Below, piece after piece: positions 4,056 to 12,568 of a stretch of 29,883 nt of DNA. This DNA is from a virus: positions 1-29,883 of the IMG/VR virus record IMGVR_UViG_3300027763_000173; one strand, 5' to 3'. How positions within the stretch are numbered: position 1 is the stretch's first letter; the number at the start of each line of letters is the position of its first letter. Made by a program: the position numbers and the translations under genes. Below the pieces are notes generated by a model. That model did no database searches and had not been told where the DNA came from. It saw only the letters and a list, made by a program, of their open reading frames with translations.

Positions 4056-4436
4056 CTACGTTTTTGCGTTGTCGCTCCAAATTGTAATATCTACCCCAAC
4101 TTTGCCCCCTGTCGAGCCGACTCCGGACAATTGTTCAACCGAATACAAACGTAGCTCCGAGTCATTCCGGAACAAACCAGCATCGGCCATTCCATCGATC
4201 TGAGCCTTGACCCAAGCAATCAATCCATCTTCGTCTCGCTTGCGTGATAGGTAGAACTTGAGCTTGTAGACTGGTCGATCGAGTGGTTCCCAGATCCCAT
4301 GGCGAATCATCATTGCTTGCGTCACTACCCGCGATTCGGCTCGAGTCGCTTTGACTGCCCTGCCCTTTGCATGGAAATGGCATCGTGCGTTTGGATGTTC
4401 GCACTCCCTCGGTAGGGCTAGTGGTATTGTGATCAT
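4056..4436 (-). CDS. rusA: RusA-like Holliday junction resolvase
   Basis: This 126-aa protein shows the RusA metal-binding pattern: D68-E-D70-G-L, then D81-G-M-x-D-A-G, then N-D92. It corresponds to the RusA acidic triad and has the family's usual length. The enzyme is a dimeric Mg-dependent endonuclease that cuts Holliday junctions and branched DNA from recombination and replication. ATG 4436 overlaps the upstream stop as ATGA. It sits at the end of the recombination-replication operon and would act with the RecE-like nuclease and the putative annealing protein encoded upstream. An earlier in-frame ATG at 4466 is inside the upstream gene and less likely. Confidence 0.88.
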   Translation of the reverse strand: MITIPLALPRECEHPNARCHFHAKGRAVKATRAESRVVTQAMMIRHGIWEPLDRPVYKLKFYLSRKRDEDGLIAWVKAQIDGMADAGLFRNDSELRLYSVEQLSGVGSTGGKVGVDITIWSDNAKT

Positions 4437-4636
4437 GCTTCGTTGTGCTTCCTGAGCTTCGCCCATTGCTTAAACGCTTTTGTCTTCCGTAACGAGTCTT
4501 CAATCACACCGGTACCGACTTCCGAAAGATAGTCGGCTACCCCTTGGCTAACCTTAATTGACTTTGGGACCGATCGCCCATTACCATCTTGACGAGGCTT
4601 CCGCCCCGCCCCTTCCCGCTTCCCGCCTTGGTTCAC
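4433..4636 (-). CDS. Small basic protein with GGKREGAGRKP motif
   Basis: This 67-aa protein begins V/M-N-Q-G-G-K-R-E-G-A-G-R-K-P. That Gly/Arg-Lys motif is common at the N-terminus of small phage DNA-binding proteins. A short helical domain follows (ISKVSQGVADYLSE-like, then SLRKTKAFKQW). The chosen start is GTG 4636, which overlaps the preceding stop as GTGA. A longer frame from 4693 would overlap the upstream gene by 60 bases. It lies directly before rusA and is probably co-translated. A DNA-binding or regulatory role is likely but untested. Confidence 0.65.
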   Translation of the reverse strand: MNQGGKREGAGRKPRQDGNGRSVPKSIKVSQGVADYLSEVGTGVIEDSLRKTKAFKQWAKLRKHNEA

Positions 4637-4972: not shown

Positions 4973-5188
4973 CTACCCGCATCCATGGAACGAATCGAAG
5001 TCGTCCCCGTTCCCGTCAACCCGCTTCGGTTGCTTGGTTTCTTTGAAGTCCGAGACAGCTGACTTGAGCTGATTCAGGCAAGCAACTTCAGCGTTGCCCA
5101 ATGGCATGCCCAACTTGCTCTCGACTTGTTCCGCGACCCTGACCGCCGCGTCCATCATTCGAATTTTCGCTTGTGCGTGATCAATCAT
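4973..5188 (-). CDS. Hypothetical protein, 71 aa
   Basis: This 71-aa helical protein begins MIDHAQAKIRMMDAAVRVAEQVE. Its tail is polar and Asp/Gly-rich. ATG 5188 overlaps the upstream stop as ATGA, so the in-frame extension to 5227 is rejected. It closes the gene group upstream of the internal promoter. The family is not recognised. Confidence 0.65.
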   Translation of the reverse strand: MIDHAQAKIRMMDAAVRVAEQVESKLGMPLGNAEVACLNQLKSAVSDFKETKQPKRVDGNGDDFDSFHGCG

Positions 5189-5694
5189 GCTTTTGGTTCC
5201 CAGTGTTTGTTGTATCGTTCCCACCAAAACGTTAGATCCGACTGTGCGTCGTCGTAGTACTCGGCAACATAGTCAGACTTGAATGCTGAATGATAGTTCT
5301 CGTACATTGTTGCCGTTACGATCTTTTGATCTGGGTTGTACTTTTTGATCAACCCGACCAAATTGCGGTAGTTGCTTCCCCGAATGACACCCGCTTCAAT
5401 CAAAATAAGATTTTTGCGATACGTTACCGGCTCGCATGCTCTCAGAATCTTTCGCTCGGTTGTCCAGTCCCATACTTCATCGGGATAGGGAACGTCGACC
5501 GTGAAACCATCGCAGACTTCTCCGTTGTGGCTCAGATGATGGCGGAGAACTTGCCAAACAATCGAAGAGTAGTCCGAAGATACGGCTACTAGCGTTGAAT
5601 TGGATGCGCTGAAACCTTGCAAGTTTAGCATAATCGCCAACCGCATGATGATGGAATGCTCTTCGATCAGCCCTACCATTTTTACTTGTCTCAT
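5185..5694 (-). CDS. PRTase-fold-like protein with degenerate PRPP loop (tentative)
   Basis: This 169-aa protein has a central strand-loop-helix, NLILIEAGVIRGSNYRNLVGLI, placed like the PRPP-binding loop of type I phosphoribosyltransferases. Before it lies a strand-turn (TLVAVSSDYSSI) like the PRTase first strand. The normal Asp-Asp pair and the TGxT phosphate loop are changed (E-A and RGSNY), so it may bind a different ligand or be inactive. Three starts are possible: GTG 5727 (GTGA overlap), ATG 5709, and ATG 5694. I chose 5694 because AAAGG lies 7 bases upstream. The role is unknown; PRTase-like genes in phages are usually linked to nucleotide salvage. Confidence 0.55.
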   Translation of the reverse strand: MRQVKMVGLIEEHSIIMRLAIMLNLQGFSASNSTLVAVSSDYSSIVWQVLRHHLSHNGEVCDGFTVDVPYPDEVWDWTTERKILRACEPVTYRKNLILIEAGVIRGSNYRNLVGLIKKYNPDQKIVTATMYENYHSAFKSDYVAEYYDDAQSDLTFWWERYNKHWEPKA

Positions 5695-5723
5695 TCGTTT
5701 GCCTTTCATTCCTTTCAAGTGTG

Positions 5724-5963
5724 TCACCAGTCGTCGCCATCGGATCCCATTTCGGTAGTCCCTCGAGAACTATCAGGGTTTAGAGTCGTCCGACTACGTC
5801 GTTCGCTAATCGGGCTTTTGTCGTGCGTTTCTGTCAAATACCCCGCTGACTTCATTTCTTGGAGTATCTGCTTTTTGCAGTCGACACAATACTTTTCGTC
5901 ACGTACTGCGTAGTGACTGCATGTCTTACATACCTTCGGTGGTACTTTGTTTTTCTTCGTCAT
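5724..5963 (-). CDS. Small zinc-ribbon protein
   Basis: This 79-aa protein has two Cys pairs, C12-x2-C15 and C26-x2-C29, ten residues apart, in a Lys-rich context (KVCKTCSHYAVRDEKYCVDC). This is a likely Zn ribbon. The remaining half is polar and probably disordered, rich in Ser/Arg/Asp. The start overlaps the upstream stop as ATGA. Such proteins usually bind nucleic acid or a replication partner. Exact function is unknown. Confidence 0.7.
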   Translation of the reverse strand: MTKKNKVPPKVCKTCSHYAVRDEKYCVDCKKQILQEMKSAGYLTETHDKSPISERRSRTTLNPDSSRGTTEMGSDGDDW

Positions 5964-6463: not shown

Positions 6464-6681
6464 CGTCGGCTCTTCTCAGCTAGTTCGAAGTCCCCAAACT
6501 CAAAAGATGTCACTCGATCGACTCGGACGGTCCATCCAAAACACTCGAGCGACTTCTGGATTCTGTCGCTGTAGACTTTCGACGGATATGGTCCCGTCTC
6601 AGCCACTTTATGAAACGACACGACGTAGGTGCCTGTTGCCTTGCGATACGCTTGGGCCCGAAAGTAGTATGCCCTATCCAT
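6460..6681 (-). CDS. Hypothetical protein, 73 aa
   Basis: This 73-aa basic protein (MDRAYYFRAQAYRKATGTY) shows a short beta-alpha-beta pattern: TYVVSFHKV, then RIQKSLECFGW, then TVRVDRV. Its ATG lies 8 bases inside the end of the initiator-like gene and its stop overlaps the next start as ATGA. It belongs to the replication operon. The family is not recognised. Confidence 0.65.
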   Translation of the reverse strand: MDRAYYFRAQAYRKATGTYVVSFHKVAETGPYPSKVYSDRIQKSLECFGWTVRVDRVTSFEFGDFELAEKSRR

Positions 6682-7582
6682 TTTTGTTCGTCTCCATGAT
6701 TCCGTTTAGTTTTTCTTCAATGGTCCGTGCGGTTGTCTCTCGAGCCTTTTTGTGACCACCGTCCATAATCAGATTGGTGCAATTCGTTCTCGAGATACTG
6801 AAGTGAAGTATTTCCGTCGCCTCGAGCGTTGTGTATCGCTCGAGCATGTAGAGCTGTTGCTTTTGGGTAATGTCGTCCATCCGTCGACCGGTCTTCCGCT
6901 GTTGCTTCAGGATCCAGTTTTCCCAAGCTTGGCGAAATTCTTCCGATGGCGAATGCCTAGAACAACCGATTGTCTCTAAGAGAGAGTTTTCCCCCTCTTT
7001 AGGATAGGATAGACTAGGATAGGATAGGATAGGTGGAGCACTCTCAAGAACGCTCTCCTGACCGTTCTCTAGTGCGCTCTGGTGAGCGCTCTCAAGATCG
7101 CTCTCAGCTATCAAAATATCGTTCTTAGAGAGCGATTCCGTACCCTCAGTAGGTCTCTCAGCTACCTGAATCGGTCTCTTAGAGAGCTTTTCGGGTGGGT
7201 CAGTAGGTCTCTCAGCCCCGTTTTTCGGTCTCTGAGAGGGTCTCTCAGGTCCGGTCGCGAAACCCTTGCTCGTGCGGATAAGTTGAGCCTTTACCCAGTT
7301 TGGAGCATGTTCGTGCCAGTCGTGGACGACTAGCCGATAGTCCGGATGTTCGTCCAGGAATCGAGTTGACACAAGATATTCGATCAAAGCGTCGGGATTC
7401 CCGGCGTAATCAACCAGGATCGCTATCTCTTCGTTGGAGAACTTCCCGATGTCACCGGCAGGACAATTCTTCTGAGTCGCCATCCAAAGCATTTCCAAAA
7501 GACCTACGACGGAACGAATGTTCTCGCCAAGGTAGCGTTGGAGTCGCTTAAACTTAACCAAGTCGATCGTGTTGTTCTTCAT
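6674..7582 (-). CDS. Phage replication initiator-like protein
   Basis: This 302-aa protein has an N-terminal domain of ~110 residues with an initiator-type winged-helix feel (IRSVVGLLEMLWMATQ) ending in LVVHDWHEHAPNWVK. The 'DWHxHAP' signature is typical of phage replisome organisers. A polar linker of ~115 residues is rich in E-R-P-T, L-S-K and E-S-x repeats. A C-terminal domain of ~90 residues (FRQAWENWILKQQRKTGRR) resembles DnaD-like or helicase-loader-binding ends. The linker DNA holds iterons, as in lambda O and SPP1 gp38-type systems. ATG 7582 overlaps the upstream stop as ATGA. A longer in-frame extension is only a shadow. The likely role is origin binding and helicase recruitment. Confidence 0.75.
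   Translation of the reverse strand: MKNNTIDLVKFKRLQRYLGENIRSVVGLLEMLWMATQKNCPAGDIGKFSNEEIAILVDYAGNPDALIEYLVSTRFLDEHPDYRLVVHDWHEHAPNWVKAQLIRTSKGFATGPERPSQRPKNGAERPTDPPEKLSKRPIQVAERPTEGTESLSKNDILIAESDLESAHQSALENGQESVLESAPPILSYPSLSYPKEGENSLLETIGCSRHSPSEEFRQAWENWILKQQRKTGRRMDDITQKQQLYMLERYTTLEATEILHFSISRTNCTNLIMDGGHKKARETTARTIEEKLNGIMETNKNG
7001..7033. repeat. AGGAT 5-bp tandem repeat (about 6.6 units)
   Basis: The unit AGGAT occurs in tandem: two copies, one variant AGACT, three more copies, then a partial AGG. It lies inside the initiator-like gene, next to the 12-bp iterons. In protein it encodes a Leu-Ser-Tyr-Pro pattern. Confidence 0.9.
7041..7112. repeat. Six 12-bp iterons within the initiator gene (candidate replication origin)
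   Basis: Six head-to-tail 12-base units start at 7041, 7053, 7065, 7077, 7089 and 7101. Their plus-strand consensus is CTCTCAAGANCG, with CTCTCAAGAACG and CTCTCAAGATCG as the best copies. Further CTCTCA or GAGAG blocks follow to about 7245. Phage origins often lie as iterons inside the initiator gene (lambda O). Here the unit length is a whole number of codons, so the array also encodes a 4-residue repeat (LESA / HQSA / LENG / QESV). Confidence 0.65.
7146..7216. repeat. 17-bp direct repeat pair with CTCTCAG blocks
   Basis: TCAGTAGGTCTCTCAGC occurs exactly at 7146-7162 and 7200-7216, 54 bases apart. Between and after them lie the near-palindromes CTCTTAGAGAG and CTCTGAGAG. The pair forms the upstream half of the candidate origin together with the 12-bp units. 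Confidence 0.8.
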
Positions 7583-7938
7583 TCGATCTGAGCCTTCCCG
7601 GTTCGCTTCGCCCTGCCACTCATCTGCAAAAGCCTGATTTCCCGCTTGGCTTCTGCCAGCTCTTCCATAAGCGTTTTGTTCTTGGCTTTTTGTAGCTCGA
7701 GCTTTAGTTCGGTGTCTCGCTTCGTTTGATCGACATATTCGATATGCTGCTTGAGCTTGATGTCGTAGTCTCTGGCGGTCTCCTCGAGAATGTCGGTTAT
7801 GACGTTCCCCGCCATCGTCGCATCCAACTGCATGCAATTGTCTCGAACGTAGCCCCAAATCTCATTCGCTCTCAACTCGGCTATCTTCCGCTTGGCATCC
7901 GCCCATCGCTTGATCGTTGCGTCGGTCGCGTTCTGCAT
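7579..7938 (-). CDS. Coiled-coil protein, 119 aa
   Basis: This 119-aa protein is almost all helix. It has a basic N-terminal half and a strong coiled coil at about residues 55-105 (QTKRDTELKLELQKAKNKTL then EELAEAKREIRLLQ). It has a good GGAG site 6 bases before ATG 7938. It is the first gene after the terminator-like element at 7.95-8.05 kb. Its stop overlaps the start of the initiator-like gene. A helper of the initiator is possible; the family is not recognised. Confidence 0.7.
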   Translation of the reverse strand: MQNATDATIKRWADAKRKIAELRANEIWGYVRDNCMQLDATMAGNVITDILEETARDYDIKLKQHIEYVDQTKRDTELKLELQKAKNKTLMEELAEAKREIRLLQMSGRAKRTGKAQIE

Positions 7939-7948
7939 GTTTCACTCC

Positions 7949-8019
7949 AAAAAAAACAGCCCCCTACGTTGGACACCGGTTAGCCCGTAGATAGGGCTAG
8001 ATAGTCGTAGGAGGCTGTT
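7949..8019 (-). terminator. Rho-independent terminator with long loop
   Basis: On the minus strand a 14-bp stem, AACAGCCTCCTACG (8019-8006) with CGTAGGGGGCTGTT (7968-7955), is continuous if one U-G pair is allowed. Eight T residues follow (7956-7949, two of them within the stem). The 37-base loop holds its own 6-bp hairpin (TAGCCC / GGGCTA, 7981-7999). It separates the 125-aa gene from the initiator group. Confidence 0.75.
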
Positions 8020-8046
8020 TGTTGGTTCGTTTGTTCCGGTGTCCAA
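7955..8046 (-). ncRNA. Interlocked-stem RNA element (candidate attenuator or pseudoknot)
   Basis: In addition to the terminator stem, a perfect 11-bp inverted repeat pairs TTGGACACCGG and CCGGTGTCCAA (7969-7979 and 8036-8046). The order along the minus-strand RNA is A5', B5', small hairpin, A3', B3', where B is the terminator stem. A3' touches B3' directly. The two long stems therefore cross each other, so they form either a pseudoknot or two mutually exclusive folds. Stem A completes first during transcription and could block termination. Confidence 0.55.
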
Positions 8047-8068
8047 TCGGATTCAACAACAATGTATC

Positions 8069-8446
8069 TTACTCTTGGTCGTTGCCAAGGGTCTTGAACA
8101 ATTTACCCTGTTGGGGATGGTCTCTATCGGATCCCGTATCACGAACGTACATCTGTCCCGCGTCATCGACGTCGGTACCACCAATCGCAATGGACATGGA
8201 TGCTGGTCGCTTCGGTACACTTGATTTCATGCTTGTCGTGATGGTATAGGCATTAGCCTCTACGCTATGCACTTTGAGCACAATGTCGATCGACAGTTTT
8301 GCCGTTGCTCCAAGTGCCTTTTCTTTGTGTTGCCGGACGAAGTCTAGCAAAGCCTTTTGAATGGACGCAAGCTCGATATCGACATTCTGCGAAAATTCGC
8401 CTTCGTCAATCAGGCTTGATTTCAGTGGCACGTATGTCATTGCCAT
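8069..8446 (-). CDS. Hypothetical protein, 125 aa
   Basis: This 125-aa protein begins MAMTYVPLKSSLIDEGEFSQN. A helix follows (IQKALLDFVRQHKEKALGATA), then alternating strands (KLSIDIVLKVHSVEANAYTI), and the last ~30 residues are polar. ATG 8446 has AAGGA 8 bases upstream and overlaps the preceding gene by 41 bases. It is the last gene before the terminator. I do not recognise the family. Confidence 0.7.
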   Translation of the reverse strand: MAMTYVPLKSSLIDEGEFSQNVDIELASIQKALLDFVRQHKEKALGATAKLSIDIVLKVHSVEANAYTITTSMKSSVPKRPASMSIAIGGTDVDDAGQMYVRDTGSDRDHPQQGKLFKTLGNDQE

Positions 8447-10791: not shown

Positions 10792-10939
10792 CGTGTTCAC
10801 TTTCGTTCTCATCTCGAGTAAAAAACAGGTAAAGATTCTCAAAAACTACCATTACAACGAGTATCGCTAGGAACGCTAACGATACTGCAACTACACCGAC
10901 AATCGACTCAGTTACGTTTAACCGGATTGCGTCTCTCAT
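10781..10939 (-). CDS. Hidden 52-aa single-TM protein
   Basis: This short frame reads MRDAIRLNVTESIV, then one strong membrane span at about residues 12-35 (GVVAVSLAFLAILVVMVVF), then a charged tail TRDENESEHDGE. It starts with ATG 10939, which overlaps the recombinase-like stop as ATGA. It ends 11 bases inside the next gene. The context fills what would otherwise be a 144-base gap with the same coupling rule as the neighbours. Function is unknown; small phage membrane proteins in early operons often affect host membrane processes or superinfection. Confidence 0.7.
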   Translation of the reverse strand: MRDAIRLNVTESIVGVVAVSLAFLAILVVMVVFENLYLFFTRDENESEHDGE

Positions 10940-11724
10940 GCCAGTGGTTCCGATCGGTTTCCGTTCGTTTCTTGCGTTGCTTGGAATTCCTTAGCCACGC
11001 TCGTAATACCATCCTTGATAGCGACGTATACCTTACCCAAGGTTGTGATATGTTGCGACGTCATTGCCGTAACATTTCGCTGAATACGAGCCTCGAGCAT
11101 TGCTGTCGTGACTCCAATCTCTGCAAACTTGGCTATAACCATTTCGATTCGCTTCACGAGTGGATCCGTGCTAGCGTTCATCGTCGCGTCACACTGAGCA
11201 ATCGCCGCGTCGATAATGTCCCCTGGTATCACCGAAAGGATGCAAGCTCGCAACCGTCTCGAGCCATTGTTGGCAATCAGTTCGTAAATGTCCCGATTGT
11301 CCGTCAATGCGTACGCGCCGTTCTTGGTTTGACGTTCGTGCTTGACTGTGAATATCTTGCTATTCCGGTTGTTTGTCTCCAGGTCGATCGCGTACGACTC
11401 AACAACCGTGTGCGTTGCTGTCGTCTCTAATTCGCGGATCCCCGAATGGACGTTACCCCAACATCGTGCTAGGGTCTCTGCCATTCGAATAGACGGACCA
11501 ACAATATCTTTGCCCCCTCGAGCGTATTGATATTGGGCTACTTCCGCCAACCCCTTTCGCTTGCATGCTGCGATAATCTTGTCTAACGCTTCCGATTCGT
11601 TCCTCGGAAAGCGTTTCGCCATCGTCATCGCCCCTTGAATCTCAGCGATTTCTCGAGAAGCGACCGCGTTAGCAAGTGCACCCCCGGTACCCTGGTTCGC
11701 TGTGGTACTCAATTCGTTACTCAT
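10936..11724 (-). CDS. Putative phage recombination protein (annealing-recombinase position)
   Basis: This 262-aa protein has the recurring phage pattern AEIQGAMTMAKRFPRNE, then a Cys-containing K-x-L-A-E stretch, YQYARGGKDIVGPSIRMAE, WGNVHSGIRELE, and GSRRLRACILSVIPGDIIDAA. Proteins of this pattern usually sit next to RecE/ExoVIII-like nucleases, as here. That suggests a single-strand annealing or related partner role. I cannot name its superfamily for certain (RecT, Erf and Rad52 are options). It starts 8 bases inside the end of the nuclease gene. Confidence 0.75.
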   Translation of the reverse strand: MSNELSTTANQGTGGALANAVASREIAEIQGAMTMAKRFPRNESEALDKIIAACKRKGLAEVAQYQYARGGKDIVGPSIRMAETLARCWGNVHSGIRELETTATHTVVESYAIDLETNNRNSKIFTVKHERQTKNGAYALTDNRDIYELIANNGSRRLRACILSVIPGDIIDAAIAQCDATMNASTDPLVKRIEMVIAKFAEIGVTTAMLEARIQRNVTAMTSQHITTLGKVYVAIKDGITSVAKEFQATQETNGNRSEPLA

Positions 11725-12568
11725 TGTCTTGCCCTTCTAATAAGTCCTTGAAAAACAAATCTTCCATTTCCGGACGTTCCAACCATTTTGGTACGGTAAT
11801 TTTCGTAGGTGCCGGTCCCTTCGAATAGTCTGGTTTCCAATTGTCAGTCAACGTTCGGATCTTCAGTTGCTCGCACAATGCTGCCGCATCTTGCATGCCC
11901 CTAAGAAGTCCGTAGTCGTCCCACTCGACAACCGACGTTTCGTACGGATACGTTGTACAAACGCATACCATTACAAACCGAAATTGCCCTCCCCAAACCT
12001 GCGAAGCCCCCTCGCAATACAATGCCCCTTGCCGATGATAGCCAAGCTTTGCAGCATGGATTGCAAAGGCTTTCGGGCTAGCGTTACGGCATGTCTTGAT
12101 GTCAATAATAAGCTTTCGCCTTGGATCGACCCAATCAAGCTTCGACCGAAAATCGAGACCGAACAAACGGTAGTACGTTACGCGCTCGATTTCGACGTCT
12201 GGTGTCTCAAGCGTCTTGCCGATCGTCTCGTTCGATCTGATTCGCTTCGCACACGCTAGAGCGTCCTGAATCGTTTCTCGTGTGATGACCGTCTTCTTGC
12301 CGGCAACATACAAAGCTTCGTCGTACGCTGCCCTACCCGCGTTGGTACGTCGATCGATGCCTTCCGGAAGAATGTAATATCTTTCCGAAAACTTACTTGA
12401 CTCGAGAACTAAGCAATGAACTAACGTCCCAAACTCCATGGCTTTCGTTACTGGTCGCTTGTATTCGCCGTTGATCATCTGCCAATACAACTCAGGAGAC
12501 TCTTTGAGCAAGCTGAGACCGGAATTAGAAACCCTCGAGTGATCGCTGAAGTAGTCTTCATCCTTCAT
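11717..12568 (-). CDS. RecE/ExoVIII-like PD-(D/E)XK exonuclease
   Basis: This 283-aa protein shows the phage exonuclease core. It has a GTLVH block with His51, KLDWV with Asp145, IIDIKT with Asp156 and Lys158, and the YHRQGALY helix with Gln180. This matches the C-terminal nuclease domain of RecE/ExoVIII and DUF3799-type proteins. It would resect double-stranded DNA 5' to 3' and hand single strands to the annealing protein encoded next. Length fits a stand-alone nuclease. It is the third gene after the promoter at 13.06 kb. Its start overlaps the RHH-like gene by 11 bases. Confidence 0.88.
   Translation of the reverse strand: MKDEDYFSDHSRVSNSGLSLLKESPELYWQMINGEYKRPVTKAMEFGTLVHCLVLESSKFSERYYILPEGIDRRTNAGRAAYDEALYVAGKKTVITRETIQDALACAKRIRSNETIGKTLETPDVEIERVTYYRLFGLDFRSKLDWVDPRRKLIIDIKTCRNASPKAFAIHAAKLGYHRQGALYCEGASQVWGGQFRFVMVCVCTTYPYETSVVEWDDYGLLRGMQDAAALCEQLKIRTLTDNWKPDYSKGPAPTKITVPKWLERPEMEDLFFKDLLEGQDNE

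Follow-up and report, generated by a model that had tools for sequence, protein, structure and literature searches.

Does the terminator that lies just upstream of the replication genes of this phage simply end a transcript, or does a second, perfectly paired stem interlocked with it make it a conditional gate? The locus belongs to a 29,883-base stretch of viral DNA (the window), which is 100% identical across all its bases to a longer IMG/VR record of 46,320 bp, IMGVR_UViG_3300009180_000007. All main genes of the phage are encoded on the minus strand of the window, and the feature coordinates below all refer to that strand. The first-pass annotation had described the interlocked stems and proposed a candidate attenuator or pseudoknot; all the features that it named are present as described, and their location on the minus strand was absent from it.

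Gene Context of the Leader

The genes that precede the element comprise (i) an exonuclease VIII-like gene (11717-12568), (ii) the PHROG 3657 gene (10936-11724), (iii) genes for a coiled-coil protein, a DUF2303 protein and a crAss001_48-like protein, in this order, and (iv) a weak PHROG 204 match (8069-8446), the last gene upstream of the leader. The leader, which holds both the terminator and the 11-bp stem (stem A), occupies a 130-nt gap between genes (8068-7939), unusual among mostly overlapping genes and filled by the element. The first gene past the terminator, gene X (7579-7938; 119 codons), encodes an orphan, coiled-coil-like protein with no Pfam or PADLOC match, its end overlapping the gene of a replication initiation protein (6674-7594; PHROG 9474, E 6e-13). 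Overlapping genes continue after the replication initiator, and a RusA-like resolvase gene is found at 4056-4466. The terminator is thereby positioned between recombination genes and replication genes, in keeping with the earlier proposal that replication genes lie downstream, the initiator being part of the chain headed by gene X.

This arrangement appears to be restricted to a single phage among the sequences searched. IMG/VR scans with gene X, the preceding gene, the replication initiator and DUF2303 returned the same phage only, and all leader copies found are identical; gene X and the initiator have no relative in genome contigs, and searches of phage and plasmid records with the leader DNA found no match. 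The relative L008 (94-96% identity in the DNA compared) stops short of the leader, and its record contains neither the leader nor gene X at any other place, while relatives of the PHROG 3657 protein and of the 5188-5727 protein do not share the leader neighbourhood. No Rfam 15 family, HMP-PP, fluoride, ZTP and abiF included, matched the window at gathering scores, and 7900-8150 gave no match even with the limit relaxed to E = 10.

A second structured gap precedes the DUF2303 gene. It contains a tRNA-like minihelix (9577-9527) built from TAGTGCG, AGGGTACT, GTCGGGG-TTCAATT-CCCCGAC and GCACTA, which resembles an acceptor stem joined to a T-arm whose T-loop is standard and leaves no space for the remaining arms; the ARAGORN call of tRNA-Pyl(cta) at 9609-9527 looks doubtful. 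As in the leader with its U8, a TTTTTT run after this structured gap nearly meets the ribosome site (CAAAGGAATATG, 9513-9492).

Architecture of the Interlocked Element

On the minus strand the arms follow the order A5′-B5′-hairpin-A3′-B3′. The 5′ arm of the 11-bp stem, A5′ (TTGGACACCGG, 8036-8046), is connected by an A/C-rich linker (AACAAACGAACCAACAAA, 8018-8035), the final As of which extend stem B, to the terminator 5′ arm, B5′ (AACAGCCTCCTACG, 8006-8019), consisting of the core CAGCCTCCTACG (8017-8006) preceded by AA. An inner hairpin, TAGCCC-TATCTAC-GGGCTA (7981-7999; arms 7999-7994 and 7986-7981), then occupies the terminator loop, followed by the 3′ arm of the 11-bp stem, A3′ (CCGGTGTCCAA, 7969-7979), which adjoins the terminator 3′ arm, B3′ (CGTAGGGGGCTGTT, 7955-7968; core CGTAGGGGGCTG, 7968-7957). 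The last Ts of B3′ belong to a U-tract of eight (7949-7956), and directly 3′ of it stands the Shine-Dalgarno sequence of gene X, GGAG (7945-7948), as read from the sequence. From the U-tract to the gene X start (ATG, 7938-7936) the strand reads TTTTTTTTGGAG-TGAAAC-ATG.

Stem A comprises 11 perfect pairs with a mismatch bounding each end, and stem B comprises 12 core pairs, including one U-G, or 14-15 when the A-U pairs at its base are counted. The terminator loop measures 37 nt and contains both the inner hairpin and A3′; A3′ ends at 7969 and B3′ starts at 7968, so that the two are adjacent. The coordinates, the stem lengths, the single U-G pair and the zero gap between A3′ and B3′ given earlier are all correct on re-reading. 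The A5′-B5′-A3′-B3′ order is that of an H-type pseudoknot, and the A arms (8046-8036 and 7979-7969) share no nucleotide with the B arms (8019-8006 and 7968-7955).

Because the A arms form a perfect inverted repeat (11 bp, arms 56 bp apart) and lie next to the replication initiator gene, they might instead constitute a DNA element, such as a repeat bound by a protein or a site linked to an origin, for which RNA pairing would be irrelevant. This is very improbable: copies of the arms in the window do not exceed chance, no iterons are found nearby, the paired arms occur once in IMG/VR with no second copy, and their placement around a terminator with its U8 and Shine-Dalgarno sequence points to RNA.

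A Predicted Strong Terminator Ahead of the Replication Genes

The G+C-rich stem of 14-15 bp is followed directly by U8, the sequence arrangement of an intrinsic terminator. In the 46-kb record, no other coding-strand hairpin directly before a U-rich stretch comes near the terminator hairpin in strength (-33.3 kcal/mol vs -18.0 kcal/mol for the next), and no T8 besides this one occurs on the coding strand. Folded as a whole, the stretch is more stable than its own shuffles (z -3.8), although its total fold energy does not rank with the lowest values of the genome. Stem length, U8 and hairpin energy uphold the earlier view of a strong terminator, and from them we infer termination at this site; that the intrinsic terminator is genuine is, on these sequence features, very likely. 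A role as terminator of antisense, plus-strand transcripts was set aside, as that strand is without main genes. Elsewhere in the window, a conventional terminator-like hairpin lies between two genes at 3405-3376, with a 13-bp stem and TTTTT.

As in a classical attenuator, the terminator is located in the leader, with its U-tract abutting the Shine-Dalgarno sequence of gene X. Since no base separates this ribosome site from the U-tract, there is no room for a promoter between the terminator and gene X. Further downstream, from 7938 to 4954, a consensus scan, which presumes sigma-70-like sites and may therefore miss internal promoters, disclosed no minus-strand promoter-like site. Given that gene X, the initiator and the later genes overlap, with no internal promoter-like site, they probably depend on read-through, and this apparent need favours a conditional terminator, that is, an attenuator. 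Read-through gating of gene X and the replication genes is thus somewhat probable, as judged from gene layout and promoter scans. The strong intrinsic terminator would then act as a conditional gate between recombination and replication genes: transcripts arriving from upstream, or starting at a weak promoter-like site (TTGGCA-16-TACATT, 8061-8088; 9/12 consensus match) that overlaps the upstream gene's stop codon, would halt at U8 unless termination is relieved, and read-through would supply gene X, the replication initiator and the subsequent genes.

The same promoter-like site, together with a structured body and a terminator in a right-sized gap, could delimit a small RNA of ∼105 nt that runs from 8088-8061 to U8 and acts in trans as a stable pseudoknot of A and B, the expression of gene X being secondary. 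A phage leader of the same layout, RCd22-abiF, yields an abundant RNA of ∼100 nt (PMC12373285). Here, promoter-like sites in the region total no more than the chance level in the consensus scan, 7900-8150 contains no repeated motif and no Rfam match, and neither Pfam nor PADLOC finds a toxin-like or defence-like neighbour of the leader, which makes a small RNA an improbable explanation.

Chance Level of the Crossing Stem

The crossing of the two stems is not what chance would be expected to give. When the terminator was left intact and the sequence around it was shuffled (80 nt upstream plus the 37-nt loop), 11 of 100,000 trials produced a crossing stem of 11 bp or longer (∼1e-4; 3 of 20,000 in an earlier run), and 1 of 100,000 produced such a stem exactly abutting B3′ (∼1e-5, a single event and hence a rough figure). 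The statement of the first-pass annotation that chance formation of both stems is unlikely is borne out by these frequencies. As a control, ∼1 Mb of other phage DNA contributed 51 distinct terminators by the same criteria, a small set in which just 14 of the 51 have loops of at least 20 nt; the longest crossing stem reaches 10 bp, in one of the 51 and inside an ORF, and the remainder do not exceed 7 bp. This 10-bp case, L023, has a weaker U-tract and lies inside an ORF with a good Shine-Dalgarno sequence, and was taken as chance.

A count of perfect 11-12-bp inverted repeats (both arms within 120 nt) gives 3 for the window vs 0.4 expected. The other two, at 2536-2461 and 13332-13256, have arms of 12 and 11 bp separated by ∼65 nt; both sit inside listed ORFs, so that some of the excess is unrelated to terminators.

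These comparisons bear on the plainest alternative, an ordinary strong intrinsic terminator, or a leaky polarity element between gene blocks, in which the 11-bp stem is coincidental or without effect. The terminator anatomy is complete without stem A, comparable perfect inverted repeats occur twice inside window ORFs, a 10-bp crossing stem turned up once in the control phages inside an ORF, and the crossing stem here was selected for testing after the fact. On the other hand, the alternative has to accommodate the low shuffle frequencies, lower still with exact abutment, and the location of stem A in a 130-nt gap among mostly overlapping genes. It is a substantial possibility, which we nevertheless hold to be rather doubtful; the crossing stem is probably meaningful, not certainly so.

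Order of Folding and Possible Action of Stem A

In the earlier attenuator reading, the terminator in the leader stands, whereas a classical terminator/antiterminator switch does not: A and B share no nucleotide, so they are not alternative pairings of the kind that defines a classical attenuator, and any effect of stem A must be kinetic or topological.

Stepwise folding discloses a fully paired stem A at exposed lengths of 95-103, replaced by the nested terminator from 104 on. With ∼14 nt taken as hidden in the polymerase (an assumed figure), lengths 95-103 correspond to the passage of the polymerase across the U-tract, so that in this model stem A is complete before the terminator 3′ arm leaves the polymerase, as had been proposed in the statement that stem A forms first. 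A hand estimate, under assumed penalties of 15 to 7, puts A and B formed jointly at -46 to -54 kcal/mol vs -45.3 kcal/mol for the nested terminator; by this rough figure, simultaneous pairing of the two stems is allowed.

Stem A would therefore close in this model while the polymerase is in the U-tract and before the terminator 3′ arm is free, its loop trapping B5′, the terminator 5′ arm; the terminator would then have to melt A or thread through as a pseudoknot. In this manner stem A could slow the terminator, an antitermination effect, or become part of a terminator that is itself pseudoknotted. The direction and strength of such an effect, and any signal that would set the gate, we infer rather than observe. 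A functional stem A is plausible at somewhat under an even chance. The more specific proposal that an early long helix controls the terminator by topology alone, its 5′ arm locked in the stem A loop with no shared base and termination needing pseudoknot threading or the melting of A, seems unlikely. The reading taken as a whole, a conditional gate that stem A modulates by timing, is accordingly put forward as tentative, falling slightly short of the balance of probability.

A leader ORF of 21 codons with a TTG start (8062-7997), which spans A5′ and B5′, ends just past B5′ and has no strong ribosome site, was set aside because of its weak start and the lack of a run of one regulatory codon.

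Comparison with Known Leader Elements

The G+C-rich stem, the immediate U8 and the ribosome site that comes next are those of an intrinsic (Rho-independent) leader terminator; in the present one, unlike such a terminator, the 37-nt loop contains the inner hairpin as well as A3′, whose partner arm A5′ lies upstream of the terminator. The closest precedent found for a pseudoknot-capable structure largely within an intrinsic terminator is the HMP-PP (thiS motif) riboswitch, a terminator-embedded aptamer in which the ON structure breaks up the terminator stem close to the U-tract (PMC6478431). Its pairings compete for bases, however, whereas stem A leaves all terminator-stem bases free; its gene context is thiamin rather than phage replication, and the leader has no Rfam match.

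In the fluoride (crcB) and ZTP (pfl) riboswitches, a pseudoknot folds co-transcriptionally before the terminator and decides read-through, the persisting earlier structure blocking or delaying the terminator (PMC10687018), and the leader may be likened to them in this respect. Their terminators must disrupt overlapping aptamer pairs, in contrast to the leader, where there is no overlap and no known aptamer sequence.

Among phage elements, the put RNA of HK022 binds the polymerase, with a general action on pausing and termination (PMC9378689). The leader is a candidate for the same broad kind of phage RNA, one that acts in cis on termination for phage genes, but its structure surrounds one terminator and put-like evidence is lacking. 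The RCd22-abiF phage leader is similar in length and layout, with a promoter, a structured RNA and a terminator, followed by a gene expressed via read-through (PMC12373285); here, by contrast, the repeated abiF motif and an AbiF-like protein are both absent, and the genes downstream are replication genes. The features of a type III toxin-antitoxin or abiF-like system are likewise not found, gene X having no match in Pfam or PADLOC and 7900-8150 no tandem motif.

If stem A alters termination, the leader would be an attenuator without shared bases, acting via the order of folding and topology. Such a mode, if true, escapes the usual search for alternative pairings, and an effect of stem A would suggest how the phage gates its replication genes.
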